Source: Xanthomonas sp. 10-10 (lineage in GTDB: Bacteria > Pseudomonadota > Gammaproteobacteria > Xanthomonadales > Xanthomonadaceae). Taken from it: 64,000 nt of DNA. A program made the position numbers and the translations under genes. Below, in pieces: positions 26,202-56,371 of the stretch. Where the stretch lies: positions 620,001 through 684,000 of the forward strand of contig NZ_CP144460.1 in assembly GCF_040182365.1 (NCBI RefSeq), written 5' to 3'. The notes under the pieces are model-generated. The model saw only the letters and a program-made list of their open reading frames with translations, searched no databases and was not told where the DNA came from. The stretch's first letter is position 1. Each line of letters starts with the position of its first letter.

Positions 26202-26695
26202 GTGGCCTTACCCTCACCCTGATTCCTCTCCCGACGGCAGAGCGGCTCTGCATCCTTCTCCCATCGGGACAAGGTGGCGCGTCAGCGCCGGATGAGGGGA
26301 CGCGCGCAGCCTCGTGCAGCTGGACGAGGCGAACAGCTGCGCTTCTTGCCGTCATCCCAATTCCTCTGCCGACGGGAGAGGGGCCTTGTCGCGCCTTCCA
26401 TCGGGAACCCGAGTTTGGTTGGTGCGAGCTCCTCACTGCGCAGGAGTAAGCTCCTTGCGTGATGCTCCCAACGTCTGCCGTTAGCAACAAGCACGTTCGA
26501 TCGCCCATCAGCAGCCTCTGCGCGCGCAGGCATAGCCCGCATCCCGCAATCTCGCCTCGACTTCGCCAAGCAGCGCAATCATGCAGCGTGATGCGTAGCG
26601 CATTGCACCGGTGCAGACAGGACTAGGTCATGTTGATCGGACTGGGCTGATTACAGTCCAGACCGCTTCATTCCCTCGTCTGCCTGGAGTCTGCC
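26202..26695. repeat. Degenerate palindromic intergenic repeats
   Basis: About 490 bases before the first VirK-like gene. Bases 26208-26460 consist of decayed copies of the CCTCTCCCGACGG / GGGAGAGG type repeat seen elsewhere in this window (for example 40954 and 49926). No gene is convincing. The promoter for the VirK-like genes should lie in 26560-26690. Confidence 0.6.
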
Positions 26696-40246: not shown

Positions 40247-41842
40247 TTAGTTGGCCAGCGCCAGATCGTCCAGCAGTGCGCGCAGGAAGCGTGCGGCTTC
40301 GCCGCCGGTGGCGGCGCGGTGATCGAACGTCAGCGACAGCGGCATCACCTTGTGGGTTTCCACCCCGCCCATCACCGGAGTGAGCTGGTAACGCGCGCGG
40401 CCGGCGGCGACGATGGCCACGCACGGCGGCACCACCACCGGAGTGGCGTAGCGGCCGGCAAACATGCCGAAGTTGGACAGCGAGATGGTGTAGCCGCTGA
40501 GTTCCGAGGCGGCGATGCTGCGGTTTTCCACCTGCTGACGCAGCCGGTTGACGCTCTCGCGGATGCCGTGCGCGTCCAGCATGTCGGCATTCCGCAGTGC
40601 GGGCACGAACAGGCCTTCTTCGGTATCCACCGCAATGCCGATATCGACCTGGTTGTGCAGGGTGCGGCTGAGCGCATCGCCGTCGAACCAGGCGTTGAGC
40701 GCGGGCACGGCCTGGCACGCACGCACAATGGCGCGCACCAGACGCACGGTGACATCGTTGCCGGGTTGCCAGGCGTGCAGGTCGGCATCGTCGTTGAGTG
40801 TGGTCGGCACCACCTTGCTGTGCGCATCGGCCATGACGCGCGCCATGTTGCGACGCACGCCCTTGAGCTGTTCGGGCTGGCCCTTGACGTTGGTGCCGGG
40901 CGATTGGGTGCGCATCGGCTTGCCGCTGGCCGACAGCGGCGAGCGGGCAGTGGTGCCCTCATCCGCCCTGCGGGCACCTTCTCCCGCAGGCGGGAGAAGG
41001 GTCGCCGTTCCCGCTCGATCCCTGCCGTGGTCAGCGATCCCGTTGGCTCTGTCACCTTCAGCGAACGGACCACCTCTCCCGCTTGCCGGATCGGCGAACG
41101 GACCACCTCTCCCGCTTGCGGGATCATTGAACGGACCACCTCTCCCGCTTGCGGGAGAGGTCGGTGCGCCACGCGCGCCGGGTGAGGGCTGCGCGGTGCC
41201 CGCAGCTGCGGCCTGCTTTACATCGGCCAGCGTCACCGTGCCGTCCGCGCCGGTGGCGCGTACCTGGGTCAGGTCCACGCGTAACTTGCGTGCGAGCGCG
41301 CGCACGACCGGCATGGCGCGGACACCGCCGACCGCAATGGCCTGTTCGCTCTGCACGGTGTTGGAGCTCTGCATCGCACCCACCACGGTGCCGGCGTCAT
41401 CGCGCTCGCCTGCGGCGTCGGACGCTGCATTTGCGTCTGTGTCGGCATCGGCGATTTCGCCACCGTTGTCGGAGGCAACCACGCGTTCGGTGGGGCCAGC
41501 CGCGCTCTGTCCGGTACTCGGGGTTGCGGCCTGCGCGTTGCCGCCGTGCCCATGCCCATGCCCGGTGTCCTGGCCATCGGCGCGCTGCGGCTGCGAGGCG
41601 TCCAGCGCGAACTGCGCCAGCATGGAGCCGGTCACGATCACATCGCCGGCTGCACCGGCCAGCTTGACCACGGTGCCTGAGAACGGCGACGGCACCTCGA
41701 CCACCGCCTTGGCGGTCTCCATGGAGACCAGCGGGTCGTCCAGGCGCACGCTGTCGCCTTCCTTGACGAACCACTCGACGATGGTGGCATCGGGCAGGCC
41801 TTCGCCCAGGTCGGGCAAATGAAAATTCTTGGCTTCGCTCAT
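40247..41842 (-). CDS. Dihydrolipoamide acyltransferase, E2 of a branched-chain 2-oxoacid dehydrogenase
   Basis: Core of the complex that converts branched-chain 2-oxoacids to acyl-CoA, here about 531 residues. Lipoyl domain 5-77 with the lipoylated Lys in SMETAKAVVE (K45); a long Asp/Gly/His-rich linker; E1/E3-binding domain 174-209 (VRAMPVVRALARKLRVDL); catalytic domain from about 325. Residues 218-303 are a low-complexity insertion made of translated intergenic repeats, including three 11-residue DPASGRGGPFA-like units. The usual HxxxDG of the active site reads HRAATGG, so the expected Asp is Thr. The start overlaps the SH3-like gene stop. Confidence 0.9.
   Translation of the reverse strand: MSEAKNFHLPDLGEGLPDATIVEWFVKEGDSVRLDDPLVSMETAKAVVEVPSPFSGTVVKLAGAAGDVIVTGSMLAQFALDASQPQRADGQDTGHGHGHGGNAQAATPSTGQSAAGPTERVVASDNGGEIADADTDANAASDAAGERDDAGTVVGAMQSSNTVQSEQAIAVGGVRAMPVVRALARKLRVDLTQVRATGADGTVTLADVKQAAAAGTAQPSPGARGAPTSPASGRGGPFNDPASGRGGPFADPASGRGGPFAEGDRANGIADHGRDRAGTATLLPPAGEGARRADEGTTARSPLSASGKPMRTQSPGTNVKGQPEQLKGVRRNMARVMADAHSKVVPTTLNDDADLHAWQPGNDVTVRLVRAIVRACQAVPALNAWFDGDALSRTLHNQVDIGIAVDTEEGLFVPALRNADMLDAHGIRESVNRLRQQVENRSIAASELSGYTISLSNFGMFAGRYATPVVVPPCVAIVAAGRARYQLTPVMGGVETHKVMPLSLTFDHRAATGGEAARFLRALLDDLALAN
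40934..41191. repeat. Intragenic repeat insertion within the E2 linker
   Basis: About 258 bases that match the repeat classes otherwise found between genes. The CCCTCATCCGCCC...CTTCTCCCGC hairpin type is at 40954-41000. Three 33-base units with GAACGGACCACCTCTCCCGC start at 41063, 41096 and 41129. The whole stretch keeps the E2 frame open. Confidence 0.8.
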
Positions 41843-49925: not shown

Positions 49926-49970
49926 GCACCCTCATCCGCCCTTCGGGCATCTTCTCCCGACGGGAGAAGG
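49926..49970. repeat. Palindromic repeat of the CTTCTCCCG class
   Basis: Reads ACCCTCATCCGCCCTTCGGG and then CTTCTCCC-GAC-GGGAGAAG, two small hairpins in tandem. A close relative lies inside the E2 gene at 40954-41000, and decayed relatives lie around 26208-26460. Confidence 0.75.
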
Positions 49971-50217
49971 GAGAAGGTACAGACGTTCGATCGTGTGCGG
50001 CAGCTTCATCCTTGGTCTGCCGTTAACACAGCCAAGACTCAACCAATCCCAATCCCGAATCCCGAATCCCGACAAAATCGTCACTTCCCGCCCACCGCCA
50101 TCAGGTCGTCGACTCCGGCGAATTTGACGCGTACATGACGTCTAAGTGATCCTCGCGCGTCGCCCAGGGTTCCGCCCTGGGGCACCCAGCCATTACTGAA
50201 TACGCAAGGGACACCAC

Positions 50218-53205: not shown

Positions 53206-54321
53206 ATGAGCGCACAAACGAACAGCACTGTAGCCCGCCCCGACCCGGGGATGCAGGTCACCACCTTCGACAATCCGATGGGCATCGACGGCTTCGAGTT
53301 CGTCGAATTCGCCGCGCCCGCCGGCCAGGCCGCACAACTGCACGACTATTTCCGCAAGATGGGCTTCAGCGCGGTGCTGCGCCACCGTAGCCGCGCCATT
53401 ACCGTCTATCGCCAGGGTGGGGTCAATTTCCTGCTCAACGAAGAGCCCGATTCGTTCGCCGCCGACTTTGCCGCCGCGCACGGCCCCTGCGCCTGCGGGT
53501 TTGCGATCCGCTTCCGTACCCCGGCCGACACCGTGCTGCAGACGGTGCTGGGCAATGGCGGCGAAGCGGTGCAGAACAAGCCCCAGACGCGCGCGGTGCC
53601 CGCACCGGTGGTCAAGGGCATCGGCGATTGCATGCTGTATCTGGTGGACCGCTACGGCGATGCCGGCAGCATCTACGACGCCGACTTCGAACCGATCGAA
53701 GGCGCCGACCAACAGCCGAGCGGCTTCGGCCTGACCTTCATCGACCACCTCACGCACAACCTGTATTTCGGCAACATGCAGCGCTGGTCGGACTACTACG
53801 AACGCCTGTTCAACTTCCGCGAGATCCGCTACTTCGACATCAAGGGCGCCAAGACCGGCCTGGTGTCCAAGGCGATGACCGCGCCGGACGGCATCGTGCG
53901 CATTCCGCTCAACGAGTCCTCCGACCCCAAGAGCCAGATCAACGAGTATCTGGACGCCTACCAGGGCGAAGGCATCCAGCACATCGCCTGCTTCACCGAC
54001 GACATCTACGCCAGCGTGGAAAAGATGCGCGAGGCCGGGGTGACGTTCCTGGATACGCCGGACACCTACTTCGATGTGGTGGATCTGCGCATTCCCGACC
54101 ACGGCGAAGATGTCGAGCGCCTGCGCCGCAACAAGATCCTGATCGATGCGGATGTGGACACCAAGCAACGCAAGCTGCTGCAGATCTTCACCACCAACTG
54201 CATCGGCCCGATCTTCTTCGAGATCATTCAGCGCAAGGGCAACGAAGGCTTCGGCGAGGGCAATTTCCAGGCATTGTTCGAAAGCATCGAACGCGATCAG
54301 ATCAAGCGTGGGGTGCTTTGA
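53206..54321 (+). CDS. hppD: 4-hydroxyphenylpyruvate dioxygenase
   Basis: Non-heme iron enzyme that converts 4-hydroxyphenylpyruvate to homogentisate in tyrosine and phenylalanine breakdown. 371 residues, two vicinal-oxygen-chelate halves. The iron ligands are H181 (FIDHLTHN), H259 (GIQHIACFTDDI) and E339 (IFFEIIQRKG). The product is the substrate of HmgA, whose gene lies 740 bases downstream; the gap is largely filled by the DUF559 unit. In some bacteria build-up of its product gives brown pyomelanin. Probably controlled by the divergent MarR gene. Confidence 0.95.
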   Translation: MSAQTNSTVARPDPGMQVTTFDNPMGIDGFEFVEFAAPAGQAAQLHDYFRKMGFSAVLRHRSRAITVYRQGGVNFLLNEEPDSFAADFAAAHGPCACGFAIRFRTPADTVLQTVLGNGGEAVQNKPQTRAVPAPVVKGIGDCMLYLVDRYGDAGSIYDADFEPIEGADQQPSGFGLTFIDHLTHNLYFGNMQRWSDYYERLFNFREIRYFDIKGAKTGLVSKAMTAPDGIVRIPLNESSDPKSQINEYLDAYQGEGIQHIACFTDDIYASVEKMREAGVTFLDTPDTYFDVVDLRIPDHGEDVERLRRNKILIDADVDTKQRKLLQIFTTNCIGPIFFEIIQRKGNEGFGEGNFQALFESIERDQIKRGVL

Positions 54322-54435
54322 GGGCGGGCATTGGGAATTCGCTGTTCGGGATTTGCCGAAGGCAATACGTTCAAGCGCCACATCATCAGGACACGGTTGT
54401 CTGACAAGACAAACCAGTAAGAGCTCACGCAGTTA

Positions 54436-54953
54436 AAGCCCCTCTCTCCACGGGGCGAGAAGTCAACCTTGCGCGCCCCTGGGGCGCGTGCCTTGGAGCG
54501 CCCGCGCCGCAAGCGCGGGCCGGGGCGCGGAGCGGGGGTTGGGGTGAGGGTACGGTGGAGCGATGAAAATCAGACCGCCATTACCCACGGTTGCGCTCAC
54601 CAACGCGCGTGCGTCACGGACAGGGATGACAGAAGCAGAGCGCGCACTTTGGCGCTGTCTCCGCAGCAATCAGCTACAAGGTTTCAAGTTCAGGCGTCAG
54701 CATCCGATTCCGCCTTACATCGCAGATTTTTGTTGTATTGATGCGGCGTTGATTGTTGAACTGGATGGCTCGCAGCATCAGACATCCAGCGATCAGGCAA
54801 GAACGCGGTGGCTGCAATCGAAGGGTTGGAGAGTGCTGCGGTTCTGGAACAACGATGTGTTGCTTTCGCTGGATGCGGTGGTCGAGATGATCTTCAAGGT
54901 GGTCGCTACGCCGTACCCTCACCCCAACCCCTCTCCCGCGGGGAGAGGGGCTT
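54436..54953 (+). mobile_element. Inverted-repeat-bounded unit carrying a DUF559 nuclease gene
   Basis: A 518-base unit with AAGCCCCTCTC at 54436-54446 and its reverse complement at 54943-54953. A second, inner inverted repeat of 21 bases is exact (54535-54555 against 54911-54931), beginning GGGGTTGGGGTGAGG. The left arm is 120 bases and contains GC-rich hairpins; the right arm is short. Between them is one gene, the DUF559 nuclease, whose last codons (PHPNPSPAGRG) are made from the right arm. It separates hppD from hmgA. A nuclease-less relative of the left arm lies at 49746. Mobility is a hypothesis. Confidence 0.5.
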
Positions 54954-54955
54954 AA
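54563..54955 (+). CDS. DUF559 (Vsr-like) endonuclease-fold protein
   Basis: A 130-residue protein with the DUF559 domain of the PD-(D/E)xK nuclease superfamily. Recognisable segments are MTEAERALWRCLRSNQLQGF, KFRRQHPIPPYIADFCC and LIVELDGSQHQ, then GWRVLRFWNNDVL. The Asp of IADF and the Glu/Asp of VELDGSQH would be metal ligands. The DNA target is unknown. The ATG follows GGTGGAG with short spacing. The last 15 residues are a translation of the flanking repeat, so the original end may have been lost or captured. It lies wholly within the inverted repeats at 54436-54953. Confidence 0.82.
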   Translation: MKIRPPLPTVALTNARASRTGMTEAERALWRCLRSNQLQGFKFRRQHPIPPYIADFCCIDAALIVELDGSQHQTSSDQARTRWLQSKGWRVLRFWNNDVLLSLDAVVEMIFKVVATPYPHPNPSPAGRGA

Positions 54956-55057
54956 TCCGCCAGGCCTCAGCTCTTCTTCGGTAGGAAAGCGGCCTGATTC
55001 AACTCAATCCCAACCTTCTGCATCCGGGGAGGGAGGGCCAAAATCCGGACGCATGCC

Positions 55058-56371
55058 ATGCATAACAACGAGCACTACATGACCGGCTTCGGCAACGCGT
55101 TCGCGACCGAGGCGGTGGCCGGCACCTTGCCGGTCGGGCAGAACTCGCCGCAGCGTGTGGCGCACGGGCTATATGCCGAGCAGCTGTCGGGCACCGCCTT
55201 CACCGCGCCACGCGGCGAGAACCGGCGCAGTTGGCTATACCGCATTCGCCCGGCCGCCGTGCATGGCAGCTTCTCCTTGATCGAGCAGTCGCAGTTCCAC
55301 AACGACTTCGGCAGCGGCCCGGTACCGCCAGACCAGATGCGCTGGAGTCCACTGCCGTTGCCGGCTAAGCCCACTGATTTCGTCGATGGTCTATACACCA
55401 TGGCCGGCAATGGCAGCCCGGAGGCGATGACCGGCGTGGCCGTGCATCTGTATGCGGCCAATGCCTCCATGCACGATCGCTTCTTCTATGACGCCGATGG
55501 CGAGTTGTTGCTGGTGCCGCAGCAGGGCCGTCTGCGGGTGCACACCGAGCTCGGCGTGCTGGAGCTGGAGCCGCAGCAGATTGGGGTGATTCCGCGCGGC
55601 GTGCGCTTGCGCGTCGAGCTGCTCGATGACACGGCCCGCGGCTATGTCTGCGAGAACTTCGGTGGCTTGTTGCGCCTGCCCGACCTGGGGCCGATCGGCT
55701 CCAACGGGCTGGCCAATGCGCGTGATTTCGAAACGCCACATGCCGCCTTCGAACAGCGCGAAGGCGCGTTCGAACTGGTGGCGAAATTCCAGGGTCATCT
55801 ATGGCGTGCGGACATCGGTCATTCGCCGCTGGATGTGGTGGCCTGGCATGGCAATTACGCGCCGTATCGCTACGATCTGCGCCGCTTCAACACCATCGGC
55901 TCGATCAGTTTCGATCATCCCGATCCGAGCATCTTCACCGTGCTGACCTCGCCCAGCGACACGCACGGCACGGCCAACATGGATTTTGCGATCTTTCCGC
56001 CACGCTGGCTGGTGGCGCAGCACACCTTTCGCCCGCCGTGGTTCCACCGCAATGTGGCCAGCGAGTTCATGGGCCTGGTGCATGGCGTCTACGACGCAAA
56101 GGCCGAAGGCTTCGCGCCGGGCGGGGCGTCGCTGCACAACTGCATGAGCGGGCACGGCCCGGATGCGGCGACCTTCGACAAGGCCTCGCAGGCGGACCTG
56201 TCGCGTCCCGACGTGATCGCCGAGACCATGGCCTTCATGTTCGAAACCCGAGCGGTATTGCGGCCCACCCAGCAGGCGCTACAGGCCAGCCACCGGCAAG
56301 GCGACTATCAGCAATGCTGGTCCGGATTGCGTGCAGGGTTCAATGCGCCGACTTCTGGCCCGGCTGACTAA
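55058..56371 (+). CDS. hmgA: Homogentisate 1,2-dioxygenase
   Basis: Opens the ring of homogentisate to maleylacetoacetate, the step after HppD. 437 residues, cupin-type non-heme iron enzyme. The iron ligands fall on H330 ([10 protein letters not shown]), E336 and H366 ([10 protein letters not shown]), with the same spacing as in the human enzyme. The N-terminal [13 protein letters not shown] and the middle [13 protein letters not shown] are family marks. A start seven codons later at MTGFGN is also possible. The genes for maleylacetoacetate isomerase and fumarylacetoacetase are not in the window. Confidence 0.95.

Follow-up and report, generated by a model that had tools for sequence, protein, structure and literature searches.

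DUF559 genes packaged between inverted triplex-capable repeats in Xanthomonas sp. 10-10 and many other Proteobacteria

Known repeat and nuclease systems

The closest described systems are those of the REP-associated transposases (RAYT, or TnpA-REP), in which a lone small gene lies between inverted REPs, REPs are present genome-wide and form inverted doublets, and the number of repeats follows the enzyme gene. The locus described here lies in a 64,000-nucleotide stretch of the Xanthomonas sp. 10-10 genome (the window; contig NZ_CP144460.1, positions 620,001 to 684,000) and shares these traits, with repeat number tracking a DUF559 gene rather than PF01797. It departs from the RAYTs in its enzyme, which is of the PD-(D/E)XK type where theirs is a Y1/HUH transposase, and in that the presence of PF01797 does not predict these repeats. 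RAYT repeats also end in GTAG, according to the accessible part of PMC3733652, and this end is absent from the repeats reported here when their sequences are read by eye; the same part of that source leaves repeats lacking a transposase as a question for another repeat class.

The repeats have their nearest counterparts in the PIT elements, or intrastrand triplex motif (TM_ECO, BoxC), with which they share a pyrimidine arm, a purine arm, a mirror-image purine tail and an arrangement in inverted pairs. In the part of PMC4666352 available to us, this motif is reported from more than 260 genomes, with 23 copies and five inverted pairs in E. coli K-12, and the surroundings of the motif are described as more variable; Enterobacter sp. 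638 has 100 copies of CCCTCTCCCXX(X)GGGAGAGGG (PMC2869309, likewise in part). No mobility function is placed beside the motif in that part of PMC4666352, whose main text lacks the words 'DUF' and 'endonuclease', whereas in the units described here a nuclease gene sits between the repeats.

MITEs and their autonomous parents offer a further parallel, in that gene-less doublets in one genome (G247) share their ends with gene-bearing units, but no target-site duplication is evident here and the enzyme is no known transposase. The homing endonuclease I-Bth0305I, the gene for which sits in an intron, provides the nearest solved fold outside DUF559 for our structure model; the gene here is instead intergenic and repeat-bounded, with no intron or intein setting. 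Vsr belongs to the same superfamily and gives weak profile and fold matches, but the window protein falls far under the Vsr cut-off, and it is to the DUF559/YcjD family, with the solved structure 3hrl, that it belongs by both sequence and fold. YcjD has been counted among the PD-(D/E)XK members, and its profile finds Vsr (PMC1189080, in the portion at hand); the Caulobacter protein VsrA, also a DUF559 protein, is required for the SOS response in cells without ScmA methylation (PMC12907096, in the portion at hand). A link of DUF559/YcjD to palindromic repeats was not found in the open-access literature searched, preprints excluded.

Such a link would supply a repeat class that lacks a known motor with a cause that can be tested, would give a role to a domain of unknown function, and would be a second answer, unrelated to the RAYTs, on the persistence of short palindromic repeats. 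DUF559 may be the missing enzyme for the spread or maintenance of these repeats, and because both parts, ycjD and the triplex motif, are present in E. coli K-12, the idea is testable there.

The unit between hppD and hmgA

The window genome is a single contig of 5.17 Mb, and among the named protein relatives found the nearest is from Xanthomonas sp. 3793 (99%), followed by X. arboricola (97%). The unit and its border genes, the latter named by an earlier reading made from the sequence only, are as follows.

53206..54321, forward strand: left border gene, named hppD in the sequence-only reading; served to locate unit-less sites
54436..54448: left repeat, outer (5') hairpin arm AAGCCCCTCTCTC; an arm of like kind persists in unit-less sites
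54449..54533: about 80 nt of other, structured sequence interrupting the left hairpin in the window genome
54534..54555: left repeat, end of the inner arm and inward tail GGGGTTGGGGTGAGGGTACGG
54563..54955, forward strand: DUF559 (PF04480) predicted nuclease gene, 130 aa, stop counted in (open reading frame, Pfam, PDB match, dN/dS)
54911..54953: right repeat, inverted, with tail CCGTACCCTCACCCCAA, then hairpin CCCCTCTCCC-GCG-GGGAGAGGGG, then CTT; encodes the C-terminus of the gene
54928-54937 and 54941-54950: hairpin arms of the right repeat
55058..56371, forward strand: right border gene, named hmgA in the sequence-only reading; matched in 23 of 23 genomes searched

An 11-mer inverted pair (AAGCCCCTCTC at 54436-54446 and GAGAGGGGCTT at 54943-54953) falls within a 26-nt pair that is 81% complementary (54429-54454 and 54935-54960), and a 21-mer inverted pair (GGGGTTGGGGTGAGGGTACGG at 54535-54555 and CCGTACCCTCACCCCAACCCC at 54911-54931) falls within a 38-nt pair that is 84% complementary (54526-54563 and 54903-54940). 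The sequence-only reading had described these as an 11-base outer and a 21-base exact inner inverted repeat, and the coordinates it gave are correct. It had also called them nested, and here we depart from it: the pairs are real, but each side is better described as one repeat element, which has CCCCTCTCCC-loop-GGGAGAGGGG as its outer hairpin and a G-rich inward tail TTGGGGTGAGGG. Compact left-side hairpins are present in other copies of the unit (e.g. L034, L036, L038, L040 and L047). The last codons of the gene (..PHPNPSPAGRGA, stop) are coded by the right repeat, as had been proposed. The top inverted match between the window flanks scores 24.0 and exceeds chance, since all 141 shifted controls, taken from the 49 loci of this genus, stay below 20.

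The arms vary by genome (CCCTCTCCC, CCTTCTCCC, CCTTCCCCC, CTCCCTCCC, ATCTCCCCCC and others), and in some genomes but not in others the tail is preceded by a second, small hairpin, but the left and right repeats agree within each locus despite these differences. The tail mirrors the purine arm of its own stem, with a mean of 7.72 matches of 9 and at least 8 matches in 77 of the 101 usable repeats (of 111), against 6.77 for shuffled arms, 7.10 for the arms of other repeats and 7.30 for a direct copy. Judged by sequence, the hairpin and mirror tail thus have the predicted layout of an intrastrand triplex. Protein type and repeat type go together when loci sharing a site are kept (0 of 200 shuffles reach the observed value); without the site-sharing loci the relation is not significant, 43 of 500 shuffles reaching it, and our argument does not depend on it.

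The DUF559 assignment made from the sequence holds, the window protein matching PF04480 with E 8.7e-39 and 132.2 bits (curated cut-off 20.6) and the PDB entry 3hrl with E 1e-24. Pfam finds on it DUF559 alone, plus a sub-threshold MTES_1575 match, and no Y1_Tnp (HUH) domain; PADLOC returns a weak DpdF match alone (E 0.039). A structure model (pLDDT 79.2) has its best match in 3hrl (E 4.6e-7), and beyond DUF559 the model comes closest to the catalytic domain of I-Bth0305I (3r3p, E 1.9e-4). Among 97 intact proteins nine residues are at 100% (rounded), including E26, D55, E66 and D68. With these invariant acidic residues and a mixed sheet set between helices, the window protein is of the PD-(D/E)XK type, and it is likely to cut DNA. 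The DUF559 protein is under purifying selection, with a median pairwise dN/dS of 0.167 among 20 of the 25 hppD-hmgA copies (L033, L037, L061, L076 and L077, some of them short or decayed, were left out).

These properties bear on the view that DUF559 is a Vsr-like host repair nuclease acting at repeats, for example in hairpin resolution at forks, with the flanking pair as a binding site or terminator and with repeats surviving solely where DUF559 is present. Purifying selection at a fixed site agrees with it, as do the modelled resemblance to Vsr (1vsr, rank 10, E 0.034) and the part played by Caulobacter VsrA in the SOS response without ScmA methylation (PMC12907096, as far as the portion at hand goes). 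The Vsr profile gives only 18.5 bits against a cut-off of 97.85, however, and the view leaves unexplained both the homology between units at different sites that ends near their repeats and the gene-less doublets with unit ends, described below; we regard it as unlikely.

The repeat is abundant beyond the unit. The 22-nt tail-plus-arm has 18 exact copies in the window genome; at up to 3 mismatches there are 48 copies against 33 for the reversed control, and so it is the exact count alone that is strong evidence. The hairpin TCTCCC-N2-12-GGGAGA occurs 133 times and its reversed pattern 0 times, in a genome with 2 DUF559 genes. Elsewhere in the window there are repeat clusters at 26211-26379, 40956-41187 and 49929-49976, with similar ACCTCTCCCGCTTGC units in succession near 41074-41157. 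The second DUF559 gene of the genome (L001:1501-1960) has a single repeat nearby. Long repeats of a TGTTGC type are located near two DUF559 genes, at L001:2088-2430 and at the end of the L084 gene, and in L084 they lengthen the protein as an Asn-Ser run.

DUF559 genes and repeats across genomes

Flanking repeats were scored as the top inverted match between the two flanks of each DUF559 gene, upstream and downstream, taken at about 250 nt each, a score of at least 16 being positive, with intervals shifted along the same loci as controls. The DUF559 loci are best-scoring matches and a non-random draw; the 60 phylum and 40 family loci added to the set are full-length or near-full-length matches in listed order, with the window's genus excluded. 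In the family a pair is present at 27 of 29 loci and at 33 of the 40 added; in the phylum, at 16 of 28 and at 45 of the 60 added. Altogether 121 of the 157 DUF559 loci from outside the genus are paired (no pair was detected at the other 36), compared with 5 of 457 shifted intervals, or 7 of 598 with the genus included. Named genomes behave similarly, with 66 of 78 scorable loci paired (80 matches listed) and 0 of 296 shifted intervals; 45 of 57 are paired after removal of 21 loci (20 from Xanthomonas or Pseudoxanthomonas and one from Luteimonas; one Pseudoxanthomonas locus is retained). Among 30 ParE genes drawn from the same genome family, which serve as a gene-matched control, no locus is paired. 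Co-occurrence above background had been proposed as a check on the sequence-only reading, and it is borne out by both sets. The association of DUF559 with the repeats is near certain, and in many Proteobacteria DUF559 is packaged between two inverted triplex-capable repeats.

Within the window's genus the 49 DUF559 loci are confined to two sites, and 25 of them are paired: all 25 of the hppD-hmgA copies and none of the 24 at the other site, which we take to adjoin nadE. The unit looks old and inherited in this genus.

The number of repeats follows the same gene. Among 198 genomes of the family, the median number of hairpins is 52 (quartiles 16-110) in the 106 with DUF559 and 1 (0-5) in the 92 without it. 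When labels are permuted within genera, the relation of DUF559 to hairpin number has z 6.2 and p 5e-5, and of the 21 genera in which both states occur, 18 agree, one (g38) disagrees and two tie. There are exceptions in both directions: 18 of the 106 genomes with DUF559 have fewer than 12 hairpins, and 11 of the 92 without it have at least 12, led by G071 (90), G201 (74), G106 (65), G029 (49) and G078 (37). Recent loss of the gene, or another driver, could account for the richness in hairpins of G071, G106 and G201, which have no DUF559 match.

A phylum sample of 200 genomes gives a similar picture, with 'stand-alone' DUF559 set by hand and 21 genomes with weak matches alone, most inside very large open frames, excluded from that class. 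The log2 excess of the looser hairpin pattern over its reversal is 1.51 in the 47 genomes with stand-alone DUF559 and 0.0 in the 153 without; median counts of the loose pattern and its reversal are 108 and 35 in the former, and 17 and 18 in the latter. A twofold excess is present in 31 of the 47 (the other 16 fall short of it) and in 24 of the 153, and within families the relation has z 5.1 and p 2e-4; genome sampling is clustered by kinship, an effect that the within-genus and within-family tests reduce and do not remove. Genomes with DUF559 are usually rich in hairpins, and genomes without it usually poor. As a separate observation, many of the weak phylum matches to DUF559 lie inside open frames of about 1,400-2,200 aa.

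It might be argued that DUF559 is a passenger, the repeats being spread by a RAYT, another transposase or replication slippage and settling near small dispensable genes. The window genome, with its 18 exact copies and 133 hairpins for 2 DUF559 genes, fits such a view, and so do the 11 of 92 hairpin-rich genomes that lack the gene. Against it, none of the 30 ParE genes, likewise small and accessory, is paired, the shifted intervals beside DUF559 yield 5 of 457, and repeat number follows DUF559 within genera. Hairpin number is moreover unaffected by the presence of PF01797, the profile of RAYTs and other Y1 transposases (z 0.97, p 0.17; z 0.31 given DUF559), a result on which we reject RAYT as the cause, and the DUF559 effect persists when genus and PF01797 state are both kept constant (z 5.1, p 2e-4). 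We find a passenger role quite improbable.

The preferred reading is that the DUF559 nuclease spreads or keeps the repeats, through predicted cutting and apparent movement, and we hold this to be probable. With similar probability, the unit would then be the version that carries the gene in a REP-associated nuclease system, a counterpart of RAYT/REPIN with an unrelated enzyme. The sequence-only reading had drawn the same parallel, with a nuclease replacing the transposase, and both the flanking pairs and the repeat number agree with it.

Unit boundaries, unit-less sites and gene-less doublets

Fourteen pairs of units were aligned, four of which share a site and ten of which are at different sites. 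In seven of the ten different-site pairs, homology starts and stops within about 20 nt of the outer ends of the repeats (L114/L137, L141/L143, L183/L187, L185/L187, L147/L162, L087/L218 and L106/L218, representing five site pairs); L114 and L137 are in one genome, 5.7 kb apart, and are 86% identical over 589 nt. The other three (L142/L143, L156/L174 and L150/L159) align in pieces or in the gene only. The flanks of L137 offer no usable empty site in related genomes, where the order of neighbours is broken.

The gap between hppD and hmgA was inspected in 23 genomes, eight from the window's genus and 15 others. Five of the eight (L237, L239, L240, L242 and L243) have a lone hairpin composed of the outer left and outer right arms; the remainder are a filled gap (L244), one with a broken gene (L241) and one with a DUF559 scrap alone and hppD out of reach (L238). 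Among the 15 non-genus gaps four are filled (L245, L246, L249 and L251), L254 has a decayed gene with one repeat, L253 and L259 have a single hairpin, and eight (L247, L248, L250, L252 and L255-L258) are without such a repeat. The unit is present at this same gap in genera g1, g7 and g19 (L085, L100, L245, L246, L249 and L251). A site in g117 shows a similar series, with two genomes filled (560 nt between flanks), three with one repeat (103-128 nt) and two with none (61-62 nt), G265 being left out of the count. Unit-less sites, looked for to follow up the earlier proposal, thus exist both at hppD-hmgA and in g117, and no target-site duplication is evident by eye in the junctions compared between unit-bearing and unit-less sites. 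Slippage between two palindromes that resemble each other could account for the one-hairpin sites.

The proposal that the system mobilises or copies repeats is therefore upheld as regards the association and the unit-less sites, and mobility itself is what the comparison of units and sites suggests. We envisage that a DUF559 gene between two inverted triplex-capable repeats, with hairpins outward and tails inward, would be the gene-bearing form, and that scattered repeats, alone or in close pairs, would be the form without the gene. The nuclease would recognise the repeat in its folded form, a hairpin or a triplex that replication may extrude, and cut there, after which the break would be repaired from another site, or the released unit joined at another site. 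Either event would spread the repeats, together with any gene inside a repeat pair, and cutting and repair would also permit precise loss down to one hairpin. Since the nearest fold outside DUF559 is I-Bth0305I, a cut-and-copy, homing-like route is favoured over classical transposition, and this homing-like step is the least certain part of the mechanism.

In a strict homing form, a special case of this reading, a bare palindrome would be cut and the whole unit copied in, with the hairpin arms as homology. The five unit-less sites with one hairpin of outer left and outer right arms speak for it, as does the modelled I-Bth0305I match (E 1.9e-4), but two g117 genomes have no repeat of this type where their relatives have the unit, and the homology arms would be only about 12 nt. 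As the unit occupies the same gap in g1, g7 and g19, loss that leaves a scar is simpler than homing, and we treat the homing form as a tentative, rather doubtful option.

E. coli K-12 has a DUF559 gene, ycjD, with a seemingly decayed repeat at its 3' end and an intact triplex motif about 165 nt downstream. ycjD matches are present in 3,365 of 5,426 E. coli genomes. In four ycjD-lacking regions inspected, efflux genes occupy the sapF-fabI interval (L411-L416), so that there is no simple empty site there; replacement of the ycjD interval by efflux genes is described in PMC12817139, in the part available. A broader form of the preferred reading is that DUF559 drives pan-proteobacterial minimal mobile elements without a transposase, in which a lone Vsr/homing-like nuclease would cut triplex palindromes that repair then copies with or without the gene; DUF559 would then be what mobilises the PIT/intrastrand-triplex repeats, and YcjD its example in E. 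coli K-12. We incline slightly towards this broader form.

Gene-less doublets with the orientation of the unit are clearest in G247, a genome with 10 DUF559 matches and 545 loose hairpins. In 280 kb of it there are 12 tails-in doublets, two tails-out and one of undecided order, and both tails-out doublets sit in one tandem array that also yields two tails-in. The doublet ends match DUF559 units of the same genome, L147/L162 and L179, and L173 less closely. In 120 kb of G231 both doublets are tails-out (L297:9019-9102 and L299:18574-18663), though the G231 unit L138 is tails-in, and in the window genome 17 tails-in and 17 tails-out were counted in partly overlapping loci, with no tails-in pair within 464 kb. 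Because of the tails-out arrangement in G231 and the lack of a clear preference in the window genome, gene-less copies with the ends of units are shown in one genome alone. Several of the G247 gene-less pairs (e.g. L289:4569-4690) have in their spacer a semi-conserved motif, CGCGATACGG, together with its complement, which may serve as a binding site.
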